Source: Limnothrix sp. FACHB-406 | GTDB lineage: Bacteria > Cyanobacteriota > Cyanobacteriia > CACIAM-69d | DNA: 64,000 bases | Assembly: GCF_014698235.1 (NCBI RefSeq) | Contig: NZ_JACJSP010000001.1 | Span: forward strand, 62,001 to 126,000 | Direction: 5' to 3' | Shown here: piece by piece, positions 27,991 through 39,052 of the stretch | Numbering within the stretch: the stretch's first letter is position 1 | Layout of the letters: each line of letters opens with the position of its first letter | Program-made: the position numbers and the translations under genes | Notes under the pieces: model-generated | Seen by the model: the letters and a program-made list of their open reading frames with translations, nothing else | What the model was told of the DNA's origin: nothing | Database searches by the model: none

Positions 27991-28132
27991 AGGGTTCTAT
28001 TTAACCTTTACTCAGTTATTCGCAGCTCTTAATACTACCTTAAGACTGAAATCAACACAGGAACAATCGTAAGATGTGAAGCTTGTCCATCGTCAAGGTA
28101 AAACACTACTAAGCAATATCTGGGATAATAAA

Positions 28133-29965
28133 ATGGCAACACTTCCTAACTTTTTGGAATCGCGAGAGAAACTAGCAGAATTCTTTTCTCAGCAGTTTAC
28201 CGACAAGGAAAAAGGACAAGCCTTTGAAGATTTTTGCAAGGCATTAATTATTCAAATGCAAAATCCAAATCAATCTTCTTTGGAAGTAATTCCTGACCTG
28301 TCTCGAATTGAAACCACCAAGGGAAGTCATGACAAAGGAATTGACTTGAAAGGTTTTGGGGAAGAAGGACAGCTAGTCCTTATAGGACAATCTAAGTTCA
28401 GAATTAGAACCATTGAAGAAATTGATTCAGTTATTTCAAAATTCGAGGGATTTATCCAAGAGACTGATCATCAACAGCCTCCACAACAGCTCAGTCTTCT
28501 AAAACATAACTCATCTCTTGGTGATGGTTACGGCATCACCTTTATTGTTTTGACGATGAGTGATTTACGCAGTTCTGAAAATGGTCTTTTGGCAAAATAC
28601 TCAAGAGCCAACTTGTCATCATGCGCCTTCCACAGAAGCTTAGAAGAGCGAAATAAAATACTATTCATTGATGGAACAGATATCCTATCTATCCTAAAGG
28701 CAAACTTTTCCAAGCTTTCCGGAAAACTGCCTGATATAGAACTACGTTTTTATGGGCAAATACTTCAAGTTGAAAATGCTTACATCGGCGTTGTTTCTGG
28801 ATATGAATTGAAGCGCCTGTACCATGAATTTGGTGAAGCAATTTTCTTTGAAAATATCAGGCTCTTTCTTGGCGAAGGAAGCAAGGTTTCAAAATCTGGA
28901 GGTGATAGCGTAAATCAAGTTATTCTCAAAACGGTCAAACAGGAACCAGAAGTGATGCTGGCTCGCAACAACGGAATTACCTTTAGATCATCTAAAATTA
29001 TTGCTGGTGACACAACAATACTTAATTTGTCCGAGGCAAGCATTATTAATGGTTGTCAAACAACTATGTGTTTCGTCAAGGGATTGATTGATGATGAATC
29101 TTTGGAGAAAGATAATATCTCTTTGTACGATAAGCCTCCTTTTGTATTAGTTAAAGTTGTTGAAACAAACAATTCTTGGGATATAGCAAAATCGGCTAAT
29201 TTTCAGAATGAAGTCGTCCAGATTGATTTGGAGCTGGCAAGGTATTTCCGTCCGCAAATTGTACAGCGCGCCAGTGTAAACCTTGGTATCTTTGCTGAGC
29301 AGGCTTCTTTGGAAAATCAAAAAGACACGCCATATTCGATTATTAAAACCATGACGAAAGTAACAGTGGATTATGATTCAACAAGATCCACGTTTATTGG
29401 TTTATTTAGTCGAGTGCTAAACAATACAATTGCAGGAGACTATACAGCACTCAGGACAGACCTTCTTGAAGAATTTCTGAGTAATGATGACACCGGACAA
29501 AAAATATTTGGACTGATTTTTGATATGAACTCTAAGTTTCTTAGTGATTATTCAAAGATTAGTGAATTGAAATCCAGGAAGTCTCAAGAAAAGGATAAAA
29601 ATCAAGAATCAGTAGCCGATACCCTCTGGTCTCGTCTGGAAAAGCCAAATTACCAAGCATTCATGAATATACTTGTTGCTTGCGTGATTAACCGTAGGAA
29701 TATCTATGCTCAATCTCGTCAAATTGCATTCCATGAAATGGAAAGCTTTTTAGAAGGAGTTATCAATTTCAATGATAAACAAAGAACTAAGTATTATCTC
29801 GAGTGCTGGAAAGCGATAACAACAGTGGCAATTGAGAATAAGGTTGCTAGAGAAATAAACCTGAAACAACTGTTTGCCAAATTTCGCGATTTGGGAACTG
29901 GCGTTGGCTTTAGCAATCTCTATGAAACTATTACTAGTACATACCTTCTAGAACTAGAGCTTTAG
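28133..29965 (+). CDS. AIPR-family abortive-infection protein with N-terminal nuclease-like domain
   Basis: From ATG 28133 the product has 610 residues (a GTG at 28076 would add 19). The C-terminal two thirds carry the AIPR signatures ARNNGITF (277-284) and IINGCQTT (304-311); the family is named for abortive phage resistance. The N-terminal part looks like a PD-(D/E)XK fold: helix with Glu (FEDFCKALII, 31-40), Asp71 in KGIDLKGF, and the strand LIGQSKFR (83-90), with Gln-Ser-Lys as an atypical catalytic end. It stands alone without a methylase partner. AT-rich sequence with almost no HIP1 sites suggests acquisition. Function as a phage-defence nuclease is a family-based inference. Confidence 0.82.
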   Translation: MATLPNFLESREKLAEFFSQQFTDKEKGQAFEDFCKALIIQMQNPNQSSLEVIPDLSRIETTKGSHDKGIDLKGFGEEGQLVLIGQSKFRIRTIEEIDSVISKFEGFIQETDHQQPPQQLSLLKHNSSLGDGYGITFIVLTMSDLRSSENGLLAKYSRANLSSCAFHRSLEERNKILFIDGTDILSILKANFSKLSGKLPDIELRFYGQILQVENAYIGVVSGYELKRLYHEFGEAIFFENIRLFLGEGSKVSKSGGDSVNQVILKTVKQEPEVMLARNNGITFRSSKIIAGDTTILNLSEASIINGCQTTMCFVKGLIDDESLEKDNISLYDKPPFVLVKVVETNNSWDIAKSANFQNEVVQIDLELARYFRPQIVQRASVNLGIFAEQASLENQKDTPYSIIKTMTKVTVDYDSTRSTFIGLFSRVLNNTIAGDYTALRTDLLEEFLSNDDTGQKIFGLIFDMNSKFLSDYSKISELKSRKSQEKDKNQESVADTLWSRLEKPNYQAFMNILVACVINRRNIYAQSRQIAFHEMESFLEGVINFNDKQRTKYYLECWKAITTVAIENKVAREINLKQLFAKFRDLGTGVGFSNLYETITSTYLLELEL

Positions 29966-30065
29966 GGTCACGTATTAATGTCGCGTATTAATTCTGTACG
30001 ATATGGGTTGTCATTTCTCGCACAGCTAGAATCAGGGCAAATTGCGCGATCGCCCCAGTCATCCC

Positions 30066-30401
30066 ATGCAAGTCCCCGATTTACCAGCAGCTCTGATTCC
30101 CATCACCCATCAACTGCGGGCATACTTTCAGCAAACCTACCCCGATCGCCTCGATCGACTAATGCTATTCGGCTCATGGGCACGGGGAGAGGCAACCGCT
30201 GATTCAGACCTGGATCTATTGGTGGTTTTACGCGATCCGGTTTCACCCAGCCGAGAAATTAGCCAAACCAGTGAATTTATTGGTCAACTTTGCTTAGATC
30301 ACAACATTTTGATATCGCGACTCTTTATGGGGCGATCGCGCTTTGAATTTGAGAATTCTCCTCTGCTGCGAAATATCCGGCGCGAGGGAATTACACTATG
30401 A
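30066..30401 (+). CDS. Nucleotidyltransferase (MNT) of a HEPN/MNT pair
   Basis: The 111-residue product has the minimal nucleotidyltransferase core: LMLFGSWARGEATADSDLDLLVV with the GSxxRG motif at 36-41 and metal-binding Asp48 and Asp50. ATG 30066 is preferred over an in-frame start at 30042. Its stop overlaps the next gene's start by 4 bp (ATGA), so the two are translationally coupled. In described MNT/HEPN modules the nucleotidyltransferase is the antitoxin, neutralising the HEPN RNase by AMPylation in some cases. Here the partner is a different HEPN subtype from the one at 59334. Confidence 0.85.
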   Translation: MQVPDLPAALIPITHQLRAYFQQTYPDRLDRLMLFGSWARGEATADSDLDLLVVLRDPVSPSREISQTSEFIGQLCLDHNILISRLFMGRSRFEFENSPLLRNIRREGITL

Positions 30402-30778
30402 CCCCAGAGCAAGCCGCTCTTTTGGTAAAGTCACAACGCAGCTTGCAAGCAGCCGATAGCCTATTAACGCAGGGCTTCTACGATTTTGCAGTTTCTCGGG
30501 CTTATTACGCTGCCTTTTATATCGCAGAAGCCTTGCTAGATCGCGAAGGGTTGGCCTTTTCGAGTCACGCAGCAGTCATCGGTGCTTTTGGACAGCACTT
30601 GGCCCGGACAGGGATTGTTCCTGTGAAATTTCACCGGTTTCTAATCGATGCGCAGGCTCAAAGAACTCGCGCTGATTATGACACCAGTTCTGACCTTTCC
30701 CTCACTGATGCTCAAGCGCTAATTGATCAGGCACAGGAACTCTATTCCGTTGCGGTAGACCTGCTGCGCGACGAATAG
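30398..30778 (+). CDS. HEPN-domain protein, partner of the upstream MNT
   Basis: The 126-residue helical product has the HEPN hallmark SRAYYAAFYIAEALL at about residues 33-47, after an N-terminal helix of the type (A)LLxKSQRSLQAADSLL, and a C-terminal TRADYD segment. These match the family of small HEPN proteins that pair with MNT nucleotidyltransferases. The classical RxxxxH RNase motif is not obvious; several members of this 'YYAAFY' subtype also lack it, so toxicity is uncertain. It overlaps the MNT gene by 4 bp. A role as toxin-antitoxin or as a regulatory RNA-binding pair are both possible. Confidence 0.82.
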   Translation: MTPEQAALLVKSQRSLQAADSLLTQGFYDFAVSRAYYAAFYIAEALLDREGLAFSSHAAVIGAFGQHLARTGIVPVKFHRFLIDAQAQRTRADYDTSSDLSLTDAQALIDQAQELYSVAVDLLRDE

Positions 30779-31991: not shown

Positions 31992-34058
31992 ATGACAAGC
32001 CATTCAACCCAAAACGGTCTAACCGTTCCGGCTAAATCAATGAAATTTGGACTTCGTTCGATCGGCACTCGCTTGTTTGTGGCGGTGATTTCTGCCGCTG
32101 CCATTGGTCTCGGCAGCTTAGGGTATTTATTTTATAGTGAGCTGAAGTCCGTTCGGATTTTGCAACTAACGTCGGAAACGGATAACAAGGTTCGACATCT
32201 TGATGCGGAGCTGCTCAGTGGTGAAACTTTTTTAAAAAGTTTGGTTTCCGCAACGATCTTCTTGCACGATAGTGGTGTGCGATCGCCCGAGGCATACGAG
32301 AAATTAGTACTTTCATTTATGTCAGCTCGTCCTAAGCTGATCACTGGATTTGGGGTGATGCAGTTCCCCAAGGGTTTGGTCGATCGTGAGTGGTTTGGGC
32401 CCTATATTGAAGAATCTATTCCCGATCGCGGGGTTAGCCTGGCTCAAAATCCTAAATTTACGCTGGTTGATCTATGGGCAGTAGATCAATATCCCAAGAT
32501 GCAATATTTTAAAGACGCGGTTAAGGCCGATCGCTATCTTTGGTCAAAGCCTTATATGAATGATAATTATCCCATTCCGCTCATGACCTTTTCAGGGACG
32601 ATTCGTAATCAAAAAGGTCAATTAATTGCCGTGATGAACGGAGATATTAATATTGATGATCTTAATAAAGATATTGATGCTAGTGATCTTAATTTGAGTC
32701 AAGATGATCCTTCATTCAATAGCAATGGCTACCATGCCCTAATTACAAAAAATGGGCAACTCTTGAGTTATTCTCTTGATCCTCGTCAGGCTGCCCAAAT
32801 GGCTAATGTTTCATCCATTCCATCCCTAAAACCGGTTTGGGAACAAATTCGTTACCGAATTAACCAAGGCATTGAAAAATCACATTTTGAATTTGATTCA
32901 ATCTATTGGGTTTATCAAACAGTTCCCAGAACTCAATGGGTGATGCTGGAAGCAATTCCCTATGAGACGGTTGCCAAGCCTGCTCTGCTAGGAGCCATTA
33001 GCGCCACAATCATTGCAGCCGTCTTTTTGCTTTTGGTTGTTTGGTTGTTTATTCGATTTTTAAATCGCCGTTTGCAACCCATTTTAGATGTTTGCGATCG
33101 CACGATTGGGAATCATAGGGACATCAACAATTCAGGCGATGAAATTAGCCATTTGTCTGATGTCTTTTTCAATATGGTTAATCAGCAGCAAACCCTACTG
33201 CGCAAGTTGCAAACAGCCAACAATCAACTCGCGCAGTCAAATCGACTGAAAGATAATTTCTTGGCAACCATGAGCCACGAACTCCGCACTCCGTTAAATA
33301 CGATTTTGGGAGTGGCGGAAATTTTGCAAGAGGGCATCTTTGGTGGAGTTAATAAGCAACAGCACAAAGCCTTAGAAAATATTGAAAAAAGCGGCGCGCA
33401 TCTTCTGTCTCTAATTAACGATATTTTGGATATTGCCAAGATCGAGTCGGAATTTTTGGAGCTGAATTGCACGACCGTCGCGATCGGGGCGCTTTGCACA
33501 TCAAGCGTGGCATTCATTCAGCCCCAAGCCGAACAGAAGAATATTCGACTGGAAACCAATCTATCGCCTAATTTGCCAGATCTATACATCGATGAACGTC
33601 GTATCCGCCAAGTTTTGCTGAATTTGCTCAATAATGCTTTTAAATTTACGCCAGAAGGGGGACACATCACCCTAGAAGTGACTTGCCAAAAGGAAGAGGG
33701 CGAGGACGAGGCAGACAAAAATGGAGAATTACAAAAATATTTTGTGCGAATTTCGATCACTGATACGGGTATTGGGATTGCGCCAGAAGATATCAAGCGT
33801 CTTTTTCAGCCGTTCGTGCAAATTGATAGTGCCCTCAATCGTAAATATGAGGGAACGGGTTTGGGTTTGGCTCTGGTGAAGCGAATTGTTGAACTTCACG
33901 GTGGTCGTGTGGGGTTGACCAGTGAAGTGAATGTGGGTAGTTGTTTTACGATCGATTTGCCTTATATTGAAACGCGATTTTCCGTCGGGCGAGAACGAGA
34001 AAGCAAGCCCAATTTACAGAAAGATCGGGAAACCTGCACTGAAGTAGCCCGAGAATGA
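31992..34058 (+). CDS. Membrane sensor histidine kinase with Cache-type sensor
   Basis: The 688-residue protein has a first membrane span at about 27-48, an extracytoplasmic region of 280 residues that looks like a double Cache domain (ITGFGVMQFPKGLVD, WSKPYMNDNYPIPLMTFSG, IAVMNGDINIDDL), a second span at 331-357, a HAMP-like linker, then the kinase core: H-box ATMSHELRTPLNTILG with His429, N box LLNLLNNAFKFTPEGG, G1 DTGIGIAP and G2 GTGLGLALVK. It should sense an external small molecule. No response regulator is adjacent, so it is an orphan. It converges with the three-gene minus-strand operon, 18 bp away. Confidence 0.9.
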   Translation: MTSHSTQNGLTVPAKSMKFGLRSIGTRLFVAVISAAAIGLGSLGYLFYSELKSVRILQLTSETDNKVRHLDAELLSGETFLKSLVSATIFLHDSGVRSPEAYEKLVLSFMSARPKLITGFGVMQFPKGLVDREWFGPYIEESIPDRGVSLAQNPKFTLVDLWAVDQYPKMQYFKDAVKADRYLWSKPYMNDNYPIPLMTFSGTIRNQKGQLIAVMNGDINIDDLNKDIDASDLNLSQDDPSFNSNGYHALITKNGQLLSYSLDPRQAAQMANVSSIPSLKPVWEQIRYRINQGIEKSHFEFDSIYWVYQTVPRTQWVMLEAIPYETVAKPALLGAISATIIAAVFLLLVVWLFIRFLNRRLQPILDVCDRTIGNHRDINNSGDEISHLSDVFFNMVNQQQTLLRKLQTANNQLAQSNRLKDNFLATMSHELRTPLNTILGVAEILQEGIFGGVNKQQHKALENIEKSGAHLLSLINDILDIAKIESEFLELNCTTVAIGALCTSSVAFIQPQAEQKNIRLETNLSPNLPDLYIDERRIRQVLLNLLNNAFKFTPEGGHITLEVTCQKEEGEDEADKNGELQKYFVRISITDTGIGIAPEDIKRLFQPFVQIDSALNRKYEGTGLGLALVKRIVELHGGRVGLTSEVNVGSCFTIDLPYIETRFSVGRERESKPNLQKDRETCTEVARE

Positions 34059-34076
34059 GGACTGAAAAGGAATCGC

Positions 34077-35531
34077 CTAGATTTTTTCGATCGCCAGGTC
34101 GCGCAACCAAAAAAAGCGATCGTCCCGCCATTCACGACCCTTTTCGCGGCTTAGATAACCGGTGAGTGGGGAAGCCAGTTCGATCGCCACGCTGTGCAGA
34201 TCTTCCATTTCCAGTAATTTTGGTGGCTGGGAAGTGATATAGACCGCGTGAAGCTCGACTGTGCTGGCTCCTCTATTTTGATTGTTACTTGTTAGTCGTT
34301 TCAGGCAATCAATCAAAAATGCACGAATTCGCAATTGTTCGATTTTTTCATCTATAAAGTTATTGATTTGGTCATCGGCTTCTTGAGCATAGGGCGGATT
34401 TTTTAGGCAATTTTCTAGCTCCCATAAGTTCAACGAACCAGGATAGGAAACATTGAGCTTAACCAAGCGTTCTAGGGTAGTGGGTTTAATCAAATTCATA
34501 CGGTTACCTTGGGCTGTTTTTTGAGCATGGTGGTTGGGTTTACCAACAGAAATGACTAATTTTATGGCTTGTTCATAGTCTTCAGGATTGAGATATTTGT
34601 TACCAAGTTTCATAAGCTGCGAAAACACCCCATCGGGTAGCGTATCGCGGCTGCTGGATTTACATTCACCGATGATTAAATAGGGCGATTCACAAACAAA
34701 ATCTAGACCGCCTGCGCCGCCAACACTATCAGGATCAAGGCTAGCTTTGGGGTTTTGATTGCGGTTAGAAAATCCCAAAGAAATCATGGCTTGGCGCACC
34801 AGCCGCTCGAATTCATTGCCTTCGCTGGATGCGCCGACTTTAGAAATTTTGCTCATCCAGGGACTGAGACGGGACGATCGCCCTGGCACGCGCCACCCCA
34901 AAAAGGCTTGGATGCGGTTGTCTAATTGTGTGGCGCTGGGCAGTGTGTTGGCTAAATCAGCAAGGGTGGATTGGAGGGCTTCGAGTTCTGAATGTTCGGG
35001 CGGCTGTCGATCGCGCAGTTGTTGCGATCGCCGTTTGAAAACCGCTTCTGGCAGCACCGGCTCAGGATTTTCGCCTGTGAAGGGACGGGGCATCACCACG
35101 CATTTTCCGATCACGCTGAGGTCTTCAAAATCGTGCTCCAGCGGGTGGGGGGTGAGCAGTCGAAAAGCACGGACGGTGGCTAGGAATAAATGTCCTTTGG
35201 TGGCGATCGAGCGAGCGAGGAAATCCTCAGACCAAATGGTGAGGGCGGCGATCGCATCAACGGCCGCCAAGTCGTCAATAATTTGGCATTCCACACAGGT
35301 GACGATCGCCCGGATCGCGGGGGGAAAGCTCTCGGAACCCAAATCTGCGAATCGGTAGGGGCGATCGTGCGATCGGGGATTGAGGCGATCGGGAATCGGC
35401 TGAAGCGCCAACATACGCTGGGGCTTGATGAACGTGGCGGACAACATCGCCAACATTCGCCCTTGCAACAGTGCTGAAATCTCAGATTCTGGCAAGCAGA
35501 GGGCGGCGGTGGGTTTGGGTTGTAGTTCCAT
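34077..35531 (-). CDS. PD-(D/E)XK nuclease-like protein, third gene of an unassigned operon
   Basis: The 484-residue product has a nuclease-like centre. An acidic helix EGNEFERLVRQAMISLGF (about 237-254) is followed by GGLDFVC with Asp277 and by the strand LIIGECKSSS with Glu289 and Lys291, the order expected of a PD-(D/E)XK active site. A C-terminal helical part follows. The N-terminal 200 residues include TCVECQIIDDLAAVDAIAALTIW and look like a separate, unrecognised domain. It is read 12 bp after the ATPase gene at 35544, so co-transcription is very likely. Nuclease activity is inferred from the motif only. Confidence 0.7.
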   Translation of the reverse strand: MELQPKPTAALCLPESEISALLQGRMLAMLSATFIKPQRMLALQPIPDRLNPRSHDRPYRFADLGSESFPPAIRAIVTCVECQIIDDLAAVDAIAALTIWSEDFLARSIATKGHLFLATVRAFRLLTPHPLEHDFEDLSVIGKCVVMPRPFTGENPEPVLPEAVFKRRSQQLRDRQPPEHSELEALQSTLADLANTLPSATQLDNRIQAFLGWRVPGRSSRLSPWMSKISKVGASSEGNEFERLVRQAMISLGFSNRNQNPKASLDPDSVGGAGGLDFVCESPYLIIGECKSSSRDTLPDGVFSQLMKLGNKYLNPEDYEQAIKLVISVGKPNHHAQKTAQGNRMNLIKPTTLERLVKLNVSYPGSLNLWELENCLKNPPYAQEADDQINNFIDEKIEQLRIRAFLIDCLKRLTSNNQNRGASTVELHAVYITSQPPKLLEMEDLHSVAIELASPLTGYLSREKGREWRDDRFFWLRDLAIEKI

Positions 35532-35543
35532 GTGGCTGGATTA

Positions 35544-37946
35544 CTAATTAATTTTGTCAACCACTTGCAAAGTCAATTCGTCCTCCAAATACCCCAGAGG
35601 AGCTAGCAGTTTTTCCGTGAGGGTTAGAACGCTAGAAATTCCCAAATCTGTTTCAATGTATAGCTCTACCTTTTCTAGGAAGATAGGCTTAAACATCCCC
35701 TCAGTTTTTTGAGAAAACCGAGCCTTTCGGCCATTGGACTCCAGCGCAACTTTGACAAATTTCTCGGCGTGTTTCTCTGCCAGTACTTGGTTAATGGTGA
35801 TAAAGAACTCGCGCCAGCTCTTGACCGAATAATTTTCGCCACGCAGGGTAAAAGCACAAAGTTTTTTGCCTTTGTAATCAGACTTGAGAGTGAGTGACTG
35901 AATTGTCGATGCATCAGTGGGTGGAGTTGTGGACTGGCTCGCGCCGTCTGGTTCTAAATCATCGTCGCCACTACCCACCAAAAAATCGATCAGGTCTTCT
36001 TCGTTGTCCTCGATCGCGCTGGTATCGATCAAATCATCGTCACCAATAATGATGCTGACGAGGGTTTCATCATCGATAATGCTCGGATCAATCAAACCCG
36101 ATGGATCACTGAGAATTTCCAGCAAAATTTCATTATTCAGTGCAATTTCGCGAGAAAACTCCTGTACTTCTGCTTCCGTCAAGCCATAAATTGAAGCGCT
36201 TTCAAAGACGGCTTTTAGAGCCATCAAGACTTTCAACTGTTCCGGGTCAGGTTCAATGTGTTCGCCGCCTTGGCGCTGGATAAAGTTCTGGTAGGTTTTG
36301 TAGGAATCCCAGAAGGTCTTGATCTTGAAGTCTGCGCCACGAATCAGACAGCCGCGCGTCAGCCCATAGGTTTTGTAGTCCACTAGGCGATTCAAACCGG
36401 CGGCAAAGGAGAGGCCCGATTGTTGCAGGACGGCTACCCCGATCGCGAAGGGTTTGTCCTGTTCGGTTCCGACAATCTTGAAGTTGATGTAGCCAGCATT
36501 TTTGGCTTTGGGTTCAATATTGGCGATCGCGGTAATTGTAGCCCCTTCAATTTTCTCGCCGGATTTTGTTTCACCGCTGATGGTTTGATTGACGACCAAC
36601 TCAAAGCAATAGCGCAGGGTTTCAGCAACAGTAGTGCCATCGGCCATTGCTTCGCGATAATCATCTTGGAGTTTCTCTTCAAATCCCTTTTGAAAACGCT
36701 CCTCAGGCGGAATCGGTGGCGCTGTTACCACAAAGTTTTCAGCGCACCAACGCAGGGCGTAACGAATTGGTGGGCGTTCTTTTTTACCAAGTTCCCTCAG
36801 CTCATCTTCATCAAAGGGATAGAACGGATGAGGCGGCGTTAAATTGCGTGGCTCATAAAATTTCTTCTCTAGTAAGAATCTGACTAGCTTGAGGAGTAAC
36901 TGACTATCTAGTTGCTTCAGGCTAATAGGCTGACCAGTACCCGCTGTCATTCGATCAGTAGCACCAGCCAGAGACGGTATTTCAGATTGCCATGAATTGG
37001 GAAATAAGAAGGAGGTTAGAATTAATCCACAATCTTCCTCGGAAAGATGTAATGAATCAAAGATAGACTTGATCAAATAAGCTAAAACTTGCGTTGAGGT
37101 CAAGCCCTGATTATTCAATTGTGAAATTTCAGTCTCATCAAAACAAAGTAAAACAGGACGATGAGCAACCAAAAGCTTTAAAATTGCCAGGTTCGCTTTT
37201 AAAGATTCCGACTCCCTAGATGAATCAGAAGCTGGAATACTGGGTAAACCCATTTTCTCAAGATAGGCTGTCGATAGTTCATCGCCGCTCAGCCATTTAA
37301 TAGCATAAGGAGCATAAGATTCTGATAGAGTCCAAATTAAGGCCTTGAGGATGTCAGGATCAACGTCTGGAAAGCAAGGCTGGCACTTAGCAAACAGCGT
37401 CTCAATTAAGCTTTTTCCCTTTGCTTGATAGCTACGGCAGTTTTCATCAAATTGCTTAACAAAGCGTACTGAATCGAGACTCTGATTACTTTTGGTGTTC
37501 AGTATTCTTTTCTCGATAATAGAAGTTGCCAATGCTTGCCACTGAGAAATGCCTAGCACAGTAAGTTGTGACAAGCTTCGGGAAATAGCTTGACGTAGCT
37601 CATAATTGATCAGATCAATATTTCCACATAGAGAAAAACTCATGTAGAGAAAAAAAGCATCTTGGGCTTCATAGATCCGCCTGTGAAGCCGCCGAACCAA
37701 GTGACTTTTTCCCATCCCCTGTTCGGCAGTGATTACGAAAGATGAAATCTTTCTTTCTCGATCAGAATTTTCTTGAACTTCCTTCAGTCTTTTTAAAATC
37801 AAGTCCGATGCCGAAGCGTGCAAAAACTCAAAATCGATAAAGTTTGTATTCCAAACATCCTGATGCTTGACAACAGATCGCAAGTTGAACGGATTATATT
37901 CCTGAATGGCCTGATGAATTTCATGCAAAGGGGAAGCATTCGTCAT
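35544..37946 (-). CDS. Large P-loop ATPase, second gene of an unassigned operon
   Basis: From ATG 37946 the product has 800 residues (a TTG at 37997 would add 17). Walker A is TAEQGMGKSHLV (73-84) and Walker B LLCFDETEIS (266-275), typical of AAA+/STAND-like NTPases. About residues 480-600 form a middle domain (FAIGVAVLQQSGLSFAAG), followed by an acidic, Asp-rich linker with repeated SxxDDxxLID motifs at about 620-690. The C-terminal segment YKGKKLCAFTLRGENYSVKS resembles a small beta module found at the ends of several restriction-type proteins. I do not recognise the whole. The neighbours are a winged-helix protein and a nuclease-like protein, a defence-like layout. Confidence 0.75.
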   Translation of the reverse strand: MTNASPLHEIHQAIQEYNPFNLRSVVKHQDVWNTNFIDFEFLHASASDLILKRLKEVQENSDRERKISSFVITAEQGMGKSHLVRRLHRRIYEAQDAFFLYMSFSLCGNIDLINYELRQAISRSLSQLTVLGISQWQALATSIIEKRILNTKSNQSLDSVRFVKQFDENCRSYQAKGKSLIETLFAKCQPCFPDVDPDILKALIWTLSESYAPYAIKWLSGDELSTAYLEKMGLPSIPASDSSRESESLKANLAILKLLVAHRPVLLCFDETEISQLNNQGLTSTQVLAYLIKSIFDSLHLSEEDCGLILTSFLFPNSWQSEIPSLAGATDRMTAGTGQPISLKQLDSQLLLKLVRFLLEKKFYEPRNLTPPHPFYPFDEDELRELGKKERPPIRYALRWCAENFVVTAPPIPPEERFQKGFEEKLQDDYREAMADGTTVAETLRYCFELVVNQTISGETKSGEKIEGATITAIANIEPKAKNAGYINFKIVGTEQDKPFAIGVAVLQQSGLSFAAGLNRLVDYKTYGLTRGCLIRGADFKIKTFWDSYKTYQNFIQRQGGEHIEPDPEQLKVLMALKAVFESASIYGLTEAEVQEFSREIALNNEILLEILSDPSGLIDPSIIDDETLVSIIIGDDDLIDTSAIEDNEEDLIDFLVGSGDDDLEPDGASQSTTPPTDASTIQSLTLKSDYKGKKLCAFTLRGENYSVKSWREFFITINQVLAEKHAEKFVKVALESNGRKARFSQKTEGMFKPIFLEKVELYIETDLGISSVLTLTEKLLAPLGYLEDELTLQVVDKIN

Positions 37947-38008
37947 AACCCAAAACTCAACTTTGCGATCTGGTGTGCAAGGAACAAAACAAGACAAATC
38001 AAGCCGCT

Positions 38009-38671
38009 TTACAGCAGCTTGGCATAGAACCGTAAACCACTAGTTTTTGTTTCAATTGAGTCTTTGAGCTGATCCTTCGACGCATCGGATGCATTGCCCT
38101 TTTCCAATTGGAAAATGTCATCGCCCTGCATTTCCAGTAGCCATTCATCGAATTGTGTGCGCGAAATTCGATCGCCCAGTTGCCGACGAATTTGGTAGAT
38201 CGGCACAAAATTTTCGCAGCGATGTTCCTCATTCAAGAACTTGTGGGTGTCCAAAACCACCGTCTTAAATTCGTCGTAGGACGTAATTTTTTCGCCCGCC
38301 GAAACAGCCCCAGCCGCCGGAGCGGGAGCCTGTTGCAACCAATTCAACGCCGCCTGAGCATTTTTGGCACTCACCACCGTGCCCTTTTGTCCCTTTGTCC
38401 AAAACGTCAGTTTGCCCGCCCGCAATTCTTGATCCAGCCGCGCCTTGCCCGCCGCCGTCAGGGATAACCGTCCCCCGTTCTCGCTCACAGCTCCCGCTTG
38501 GAGCAGCGCATCCACCGCTTCCTCAAAATCCGAAACCTTGACCTTGCTGCCACAGCGAGATCGCGCCGTGTCGTCCTTACCCTTGCCACTAACTTTGCCT
38601 TTGCGAGGTACGCCCGCCCCCGTCATGCGTTCTAGATCCCACAAGACCAGCAACAGCAGCGTTGATTGCAT
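38009..38671 (-). CDS. Two-domain winged-helix-like protein, first gene of an unassigned operon
   Basis: The 220-residue product has an N-terminal part beginning with a hydrophobic helix, followed by a basic Gly/Lys-rich linker (GKVSGKGKDD), then SDFEEAVDALLQAGAVSENGGRLSLTAAGKARLDQ, a clear winged-helix pattern (about 47-82). The C-terminal part, VPIYQIRRQLGDRISRTQFDEWLLEM at about 150-175 followed by a wing-like stretch ending LRFYAKLL, reads as a second winged helix. It could bind DNA or serve as an adaptor for the ATPase next door. An AGGAG nine bases before ATG 38671 supports the start. It is the promoter-proximal gene of the three. Confidence 0.72.
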   Translation of the reverse strand: MQSTLLLLVLWDLERMTGAGVPRKGKVSGKGKDDTARSRCGSKVKVSDFEEAVDALLQAGAVSENGGRLSLTAAGKARLDQELRAGKLTFWTKGQKGTVVSAKNAQAALNWLQQAPAPAAGAVSAGEKITSYDEFKTVVLDTHKFLNEEHRCENFVPIYQIRRQLGDRISRTQFDEWLLEMQGDDIFQLEKGNASDASKDQLKDSIETKTSGLRFYAKLL

Positions 38672-38961
38672 CTCGCCTTACTCCTTTGTGACCCGTGCAT
38701 GGATGAATGGATCACGTAAACCATGGTAAACGATTTTGCTGATTGCGGTTTGCGAAATCTAGAAAAAGTGAATTTTGAAAATGATTTTTTGAGATTTGCT
38801 TTAAAGGCGAAATAAAAATTAAACCTGTGATGAATCTATTACCAGAGGATGAAATTGATTTCTCAGGAAGCAAATAAGGGAGGTTTTCGGCTGTTTTCTA
38901 AGCAGAACGCGCCTATTTGCGCTGGGAGGCTCAATCGTGGCTGATTGTGCTGATCACCTCA

Positions 38962-38996
38962 TAAAAATCCTCCAACCGATGGCTAGATTGGAGGAT
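38962..38996 (-). terminator. Intrinsic terminator of the SGNH hydrolase gene
   Basis: On the minus strand atcctccaa pairs with ttggaggat (38988-38996 with 38967-38975) and is followed by tttttat, a standard Rho-independent terminator 55 bp after the hydrolase stop. The rest of the 381-bp spacer up to 38672 is AT-rich, should contain the promoter of the three-gene operon, and shows no gene. Confidence 0.85.
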
Positions 38997-39052
38997 GGGA
39001 CTGAAGGAAAGGGCGATCGAGTGGTTGGGGATGGATTAAACCAAAACTGGTT

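Follow-up and report, generated by a model that had tools for sequence, protein, structure and literature searches.

The window (the whole 64,000-nucleotide stretch of DNA from Limnothrix sp. FACHB-406 that was analysed) carries an operon of three genes, described in the initial annotation as encoding a winged-helix (WH) protein, a large P-loop ATPase and a PD-(D/E)XK-like nuclease, in a layout typical of phage defence that it could not match to a system it knew. This raises the question of what the three proteins do together, and of whether the DNA that they would act upon is foreign or that of the host. We regard it as fairly probable that the trio is an unnamed accessory, restriction-like system that targets DNA in defence.

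The operon and its proteins

The open reading frames (ORFs) of the window place all three genes on the minus strand, co-directional, at 34077-38671 (Table 1). The ATPase and nuclease genes are 12 bp apart, and the gap between the WH and ATPase genes is 11 bp if the ATPase is read from a TTG at 37997, or 62 bp from an ATG at 37946; the ORFs thus bear out the coordinates, strand and 11-62 bp spacing first reported. Read from the TTG, the ATPase ORF (35544-37997) has 817 aa; its start is probably the internal ATG, giving 800 aa, since an alignment of relatives favours this codon. The three frames are not chance ORFs, because they are open and adjacent in all 43 loci that were fetched with long flanks, and because dN/dS against the copy in the same genus is 0.04-0.09 (dS is saturated for the ATPase); one of the ATPase genes among the 43 loci is interrupted by a stop. 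Purifying selection acts on the trio.

Table 1. Features of the trio locus, in window coordinates.
Feature	Position	Strand	Basis
Gene 1, winged-helix (WH) adaptor, 220 aa	38009..38671	-	ORF; first trio gene in 43/43 loci
Gene 2, AAA_16 / Orc-Cdc6-like P-loop ATPase, 800 aa from conserved ATG	35544..37946	-	Pfam, 44-homologue alignment, AF2
Gene 3, DUF1802 + Mrr-type PD-(D/E)XK nuclease, 484 aa	34077..35531	-	ORF, Pfam, AF2
Walker A, AEQGMGKSH	37701..37727	-	G77, G79, K80 invariant in 44 sequences
Walker B, LLCFDE	37134..37151	-	F269, D270 invariant; E271 at least 90%
ATPase C-terminal extension, ~residues 640-800	35547..36029	-	Present in two same-genus copies only
DUF1802 domain, predicted ASCH/PUA-superfamily fold, candidate reader	35019..35504	-	Pfam residues 10-171; Foldseek
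Mrr-type PD-(D/E)XK catalytic domain (E242, D277, E289, K291)	34464..34823	-	Invariance in 43 sequences, model, Foldseek
Presence/absence segment, trio + flanking spacer	34021..39050	.	BLAST of window vs G001

The original label of a two-domain winged-helix protein for the first gene is plausible, on weak sequence matches: SelB-wing_2, WH_III-A and MkoB in Pfam and PADLOC, and the winged-helix folds of RIO2 and eS10 in PDB profile searches, at E-values of only 0.2-0.5. No convincing PDB relatives of the trio proteins were found by sequence. For the second gene, the 800-residue ATPase with intact Walker A and Walker B motifs proved correct, the key residues being conserved across 44 homologues (Table 1). 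From the broader term "helicase/ATPase" the ATPase half stands, as an AAA_16/Orc-Cdc6-like protein (Pfam AAA_16, E = 1.2e-7, with AAA_16/AAA_22 and weaker non-McrB matches), and the helicase half falls, as the trio encodes no helicase. Foldseek matches the AF2 model (pLDDT 80, with low confidence in the C-terminal extension) weakly, at E 1e-3 to 1e-2, to ORC/Cdc6, RdrA and BrxC among others. In the alignment, the extension (~640-800) is missing from homologues of other families. The predicted strand order of the ATPase C-terminal region looked PD-(D/E)XK-like, which prompted a comparison with the nuclease domain; hhalign found nothing, and homology between the two was dropped.

The "D...ECK" site noticed earlier in the third gene belongs to a complete PD-(D/E)XK signature: E242, D277, E289 and K291 are invariant in all 43 aligned nucleases, and the AF2 model (pLDDT 87) places E242 in a helix and E289/K291 on a strand, which is the arrangement of PD-(D/E)XK enzymes. 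The Pfam match to Mrr_cat is sub-threshold (E 0.094); in the Foldseek viral library, the top matches of the nuclease model are named restriction endonuclease or type IV Mrr, and ASCH-named models also appear. N-terminal to the catalytic domain lies DUF1802 (PF08819; Pfam E = 3e-15, 56.9 bits against a curated cut-off of 25), which the initial annotation did not mention. Against the PDB, the whole nuclease model matches ZmASCH (prob 0.99-1.00, TMt 0.54-0.62, E 0.01-0.06) and, at lower rank, the ASCH domain of TRIP4. The Foldseek output gives no query ranges for this search, and the ASCH match was assigned to DUF1802 because of its length of ~150 residues and its strand-helix-strand order. DUF1802 is therefore predicted, from the model, to have an ASCH/PUA-superfamily fold, and may read a base modification. 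PUA/ASCH domains include known modified-base readers (PMC7641849), and among the modification-dependent endonucleases already known are some in which a PUA-superfamily reader is fused to a nuclease (PMC7897488).

PUA/ASCH domains also often bind RNA (PMC7641849), which would suit an RNA-targeting stress or abortive-infection system with RNA binding by the ASCH-like domain and RNA cleavage by the nuclease; several neighbours of trio loci, moreover, are toxin-antitoxin genes of the PIN and DUF433 families. We consider such a system highly improbable, given that the Mrr-type domain belongs to a DNA-endonuclease family, that the adaptor is a winged-helix protein, and that a sister operon (see below) uses a DNA translocase.

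DUF1802 is single-copy in this genome and occurs in Deinobacterium too; our literature search found no functional study of it. A CxxC pair (C79/C82) on a DUF1802 strand is conserved in at least 90% of sequences and is a possible metal or structural site.

Distribution, turnover and neighbourhood

The search covered 39 relatives and then 390 cyanobacteria. Among the latter, strong matches to the trio ATPase were found in 73 genomes, to the nuclease in 75 and to both in 72 (cut-offs of ~300 and ~200 bits, respectively, set after inspection of the table). The two genes thus occur together in 72 of the 76 genomes that have either, and the trio in about one-fifth of the sampled cyanobacterial genomes. 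The four exceptions comprise two partial ATPase matches, one nuclease at a contig end, and a match in G183 that resembles the lone ATPase of locus L019. The order WH-ATPase-nuclease on one strand was constant in 43 of 43 loci from many cyanobacterial families, in agreement with the expectation that the trio would recur as a unit in varied genomes. It is close to certain that the three genes constitute one functional unit. L019 itself was rejected as a trio, its flanking genes being unrelated; this trio-ATPase relative (L019:8830-11473, in G026) stands without either partner beside a vWA-like protein (DRSGSMS), and G183 has a similar solo match.

A tree of the concatenated trio (quick search, SH-aLRT support) groups by family, yet families f16, f24 and f32 need at least five, four and three label changes, respectively, so that copies have likely passed from one family to another as well as being inherited vertically. 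The f23 copies form one clade, and several f32 loci have a common conserved neighbourhood. Neither the plasmid nor the phage collection gave a match to the ATPase or nuclease of the trio, and the ATPase had no match in viral contigs; one of these searches hit only the sister operon. The idea that the trio came from a plasmid or phage was rejected.

The trio is accessory DNA, gained and lost between close relatives as anti-virus genes are. In the sister species G001 (L097), with flanks that are 92-96% identical, 116 bp stand in place of window 34021-39050; the BLAST segments between window and G001 stop at 34020 and restart at 39051, and no target-site duplication was seen by eye at this empty site. 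The trio is present in G002, a more distant member of the same genus, with a different upstream context. Losses that left remnants were seen in two other families. In G106, the locus is conserved relative to trio-bearing G128 of the same genus and the trio is gone, apart from ~80 bp at the 3' end of the nuclease gene. Within genus g25, the trio of G116 adjoins a PAD_porph gene; beside the same gene in G143, the trio's place is taken by a type II restriction-modification (R-M) gene of the BsuBI/PstI type and small ORFs. In G076 nothing but the 5' part of the WH gene is left, G054 has a transposase at the site, and in G178 and G184 the site is occupied by ordinary genes. The R-M gene (L182:5224-7746, G143:C1) encodes a single 840-aa protein with an Eco57I-type methylase and a BsuBI/PstI restriction endonuclease domain.

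Two repeats were observed near trio loci or in trio-bearing genera. A ~105-bp element (L123:4893-5003), probably a MITE-like repeat, has many copies of 75-92% identity across the g25 genomes searched. An insertion-sequence-like element of 1.67 kb lies a few kb from the trio of G128 (L109:4038-5706), and seven more full-length, ~100% identical copies are spread over three contigs.

In the window, the trio lies near a small HTH gene and genes of the AIPR, MNT and HEPN families; AIPR and MNT/HEPN are at 28076-30778, beside purL. The same place beside purL in G001 (L097:9856-13093) encodes an AAA_15/AbiEii-like ATPase and DUF3226 and HSDR_N proteins, so this neighbourhood is a locally variable, defence-type site. 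The proximity to defence genes seen in the initial annotation thus holds for the window and does not generalize. Two genes per side were taken at 35 loci, eight f32 loci with overlapping neighbourhoods being left out; the 133 nearest neighbours matched 62 PADLOC families at E<=1e-10 versus 140 for 132 control ORFs, figures that count families rather than genes and include generic kinase and ATPase models, each scan listing 25 of its families. Control places were arbitrary, not random, coordinates in trio-bearing genomes (one, L165, gave no ORFs). With no excess over these places, a general defence-island association was rejected. By Pfam, the neighbours are mostly ordinary genes, apart from the toxin-antitoxin families DUF433 (in five) and PIN (in three).

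These neighbourhoods would also suit an accessory DNA-repair or replication complex with no role in defence, in which the ATPase and WH protein act on structures in the chromosomal DNA, and host DNA that is damaged or modified is processed by the nuclease. The fold match of the ATPase to origin-recognition proteins, the conserved f32 neighbourhood, the single f23 clade and the failure to find the trio on the searched phages or plasmids are all consistent with such a complex. We judge it unlikely; the lack of neighbourhood enrichment and the partly vertical descent speak for it, and it sits poorly with a trio that is absent from most genomes and is gained and lost within genera with remnants left behind, with an R-M gene in the trio's site in one relative, and with a sister operon that encodes an SspH/MAD8-like translocase and has one copy on a conjugative plasmid.

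A sister operon and the named systems

The weaker ATPase matches belong to a second operon of near-constant order: a WH gene (~280 aa, range 270-300), an ATPase gene (~690 aa) and a third gene. What is new here is this sister operon, homologous to the trio in its WH-ATPase core and different in its third gene. In profile comparisons by hhalign, the alignment of the trio and sister ATPases spans 549 columns (prob 99.8, E 1.7e-30) and that of the WH proteins 169 columns (prob 97.9, E 4.5e-13). The two operons are alike in gene order, and their WH and ATPase proteins are homologous for the greater part of their length. They differ in the third gene, which in the sister is not DUF1802-Mrr but, in the three genes scanned with Pfam (L023, L025 and L140), a fusion of a PD-(D/E)XK nuclease with an FtsK translocase, two of these three having an N-terminal exonuclease domain (DNA_pol_A_exo1). 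In PADLOC, two sister third genes match SspH (E 3e-61 and 2e-61, covering only the C-terminal translocase part) and mad8 (E 5e-26). Since both WH and ATPase are homologous and the third genes differ, one adaptor-ATPase core is joined to two different DNA-acting effectors. The libraries searched hold no name for the sister operon. Pseudanabaena sp. PCC 7367 has one copy (WH, P-loop ATPase and FtsK; L177:4630-9589, NC_019690.1:190629-195588) on its conjugative plasmid pPSE7367.01, where the operon adjoins genes for an SNF2 helicase and a SWIM zinc-finger protein.

The trio itself is reached by no family of PADLOC 2.0 or NCBIfam (June 2026), as the initial annotation had anticipated: no PADLOC model accounts for any of the three proteins, NCBIfam gives sub-threshold matches only (best, ATPase_Sll1717), and the literature searches made found no paper that names the system. 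The features tested place the trio outside SspFGH, MADS, McrBC, Menshen, BREX and Dpd. The three genes of SspFGH include one for a Walker A protein and one for an FtsK-like protein (PMC8092258); SspFGH/DndFGH resembles the trio as a three-gene set with a P-loop protein, its SspH being matched by the sister translocase. No SspH/FtsK-like gene was found in the window trio by Pfam or in the 43 loci, such a gene being seen only in the sister operon. At E<=0.1 the window trio gave no SspF or SspG match, and neither family is among the 25 listed for the 44 trio ATPases; the phosphorothioation genes sspBCD were found neither among the window ORFs scanned nor among the 25 of 62 families listed for the 133 neighbours. 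For MADS (mad1-mad8), mad8 matched 8 of the 44 trio ATPases weakly, at the level of the P-loop, and mad2-like matches were scattered over 4 of the 133 neighbours, with no MADS operon.

Membership or degenerate kinship in a named system, likeliest SspFGH or MADS, with an ATPase and adaptor that have diverged beyond the library models, would fit the SspH and mad8 matches of the sister third gene and the three-gene make-up of SspFGH (PMC8092258). We find it distinctly improbable: no SspF, SspG or mad7 is among the matches listed for the trio or for the sister ATPase and WH protein, the trio has no translocase, and the best mad8 match to its ATPases is E 0.0016.

McrBC and other type IV systems resemble the trio in combining an AAA+ ATPase with a PD-(D/E)XK nuclease, in a candidate PUA-superfamily reader and in the lack of an operon methyltransferase. 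The intact nuclease active site of type IV enzymes is present in 43 trio sequences, and DUF1802, predicted to be ASCH-like by fold match only, is a candidate modified-base reader. However, the trio ATPase is AAA_16/Orc-like, no McrB-type NTPase was found in the trio by Pfam, and the candidate reader is on the nuclease rather than on the ATPase. The EVE-HNH enzyme VcaM4I likewise fuses a reader-like PUA-superfamily domain to a nuclease (PMC7897488); the trio differs in its Mrr-type nuclease, in DUF1802 (ASCH-like by fold only) and in its constant WH and ATPase partners. By description, the predicted COG1743-DUF499-SWI2/SNF2-nuclease-EVE restriction system is also similar, with a Cdc6/Orc1-type ATPase, a nuclease and a PUA-superfamily domain in one operon (PMC7641849); unlike the trio, it has a methyltransferase and an SWI2/SNF2 helicase. 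For Menshen (NsnABC), 1 of the 44 ATPases matched NsnC at E 0.013, and the window trio matched none of NsnA, NsnB and NsnC; for BREX and Dpd, the window ATPase gave DpdH at E 0.06 only, and BrxC was only a weak fold match.

Proposed function and significance

Restriction of foreign DNA is preferred because of the type of nuclease, the gain and loss of the trio, the R-M gene that a relative has in its place, and the translocase of the sister operon. The three proteins would form a physical complex with DNA as its substrate: the WH protein and the Orc/Cdc6-like AAA+ ATPase would together make up a core that binds DNA in an ATP-dependent manner and surveys incoming DNA or loads onto it, the ASCH/PUA-like DUF1802 domain may check that DNA for a chemical mark, and the Mrr-type PD-(D/E)XK nuclease would cut it, restricting phage or other foreign DNA. 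Against a role in defence, the operon has no modification gene, which leaves self/non-self discrimination without an explanation, and the individual Foldseek matches are weak (E 0.001-0.06); the neighbourhood counts, the partly vertical inheritance and the absence from the searched plasmids and phages weigh in the same direction.

On a broader scale, we tentatively raise the possibility that the trio and the sister operon represent two branches of an immune superfamily not yet described, with an ORC-like AAA+ ATPase and WH surveillance core and interchangeable DNA-destroying effectors (a modification reader-Mrr nuclease, or a nuclease-bearing translocase). If the restriction reading is true, cyanobacteria would gain an unnamed and fairly common DNA-restriction system, one adaptor-ATPase core would be common to two different DNA-cutting effectors, and DUF1802 would receive its first testable role, as a DNA reader.
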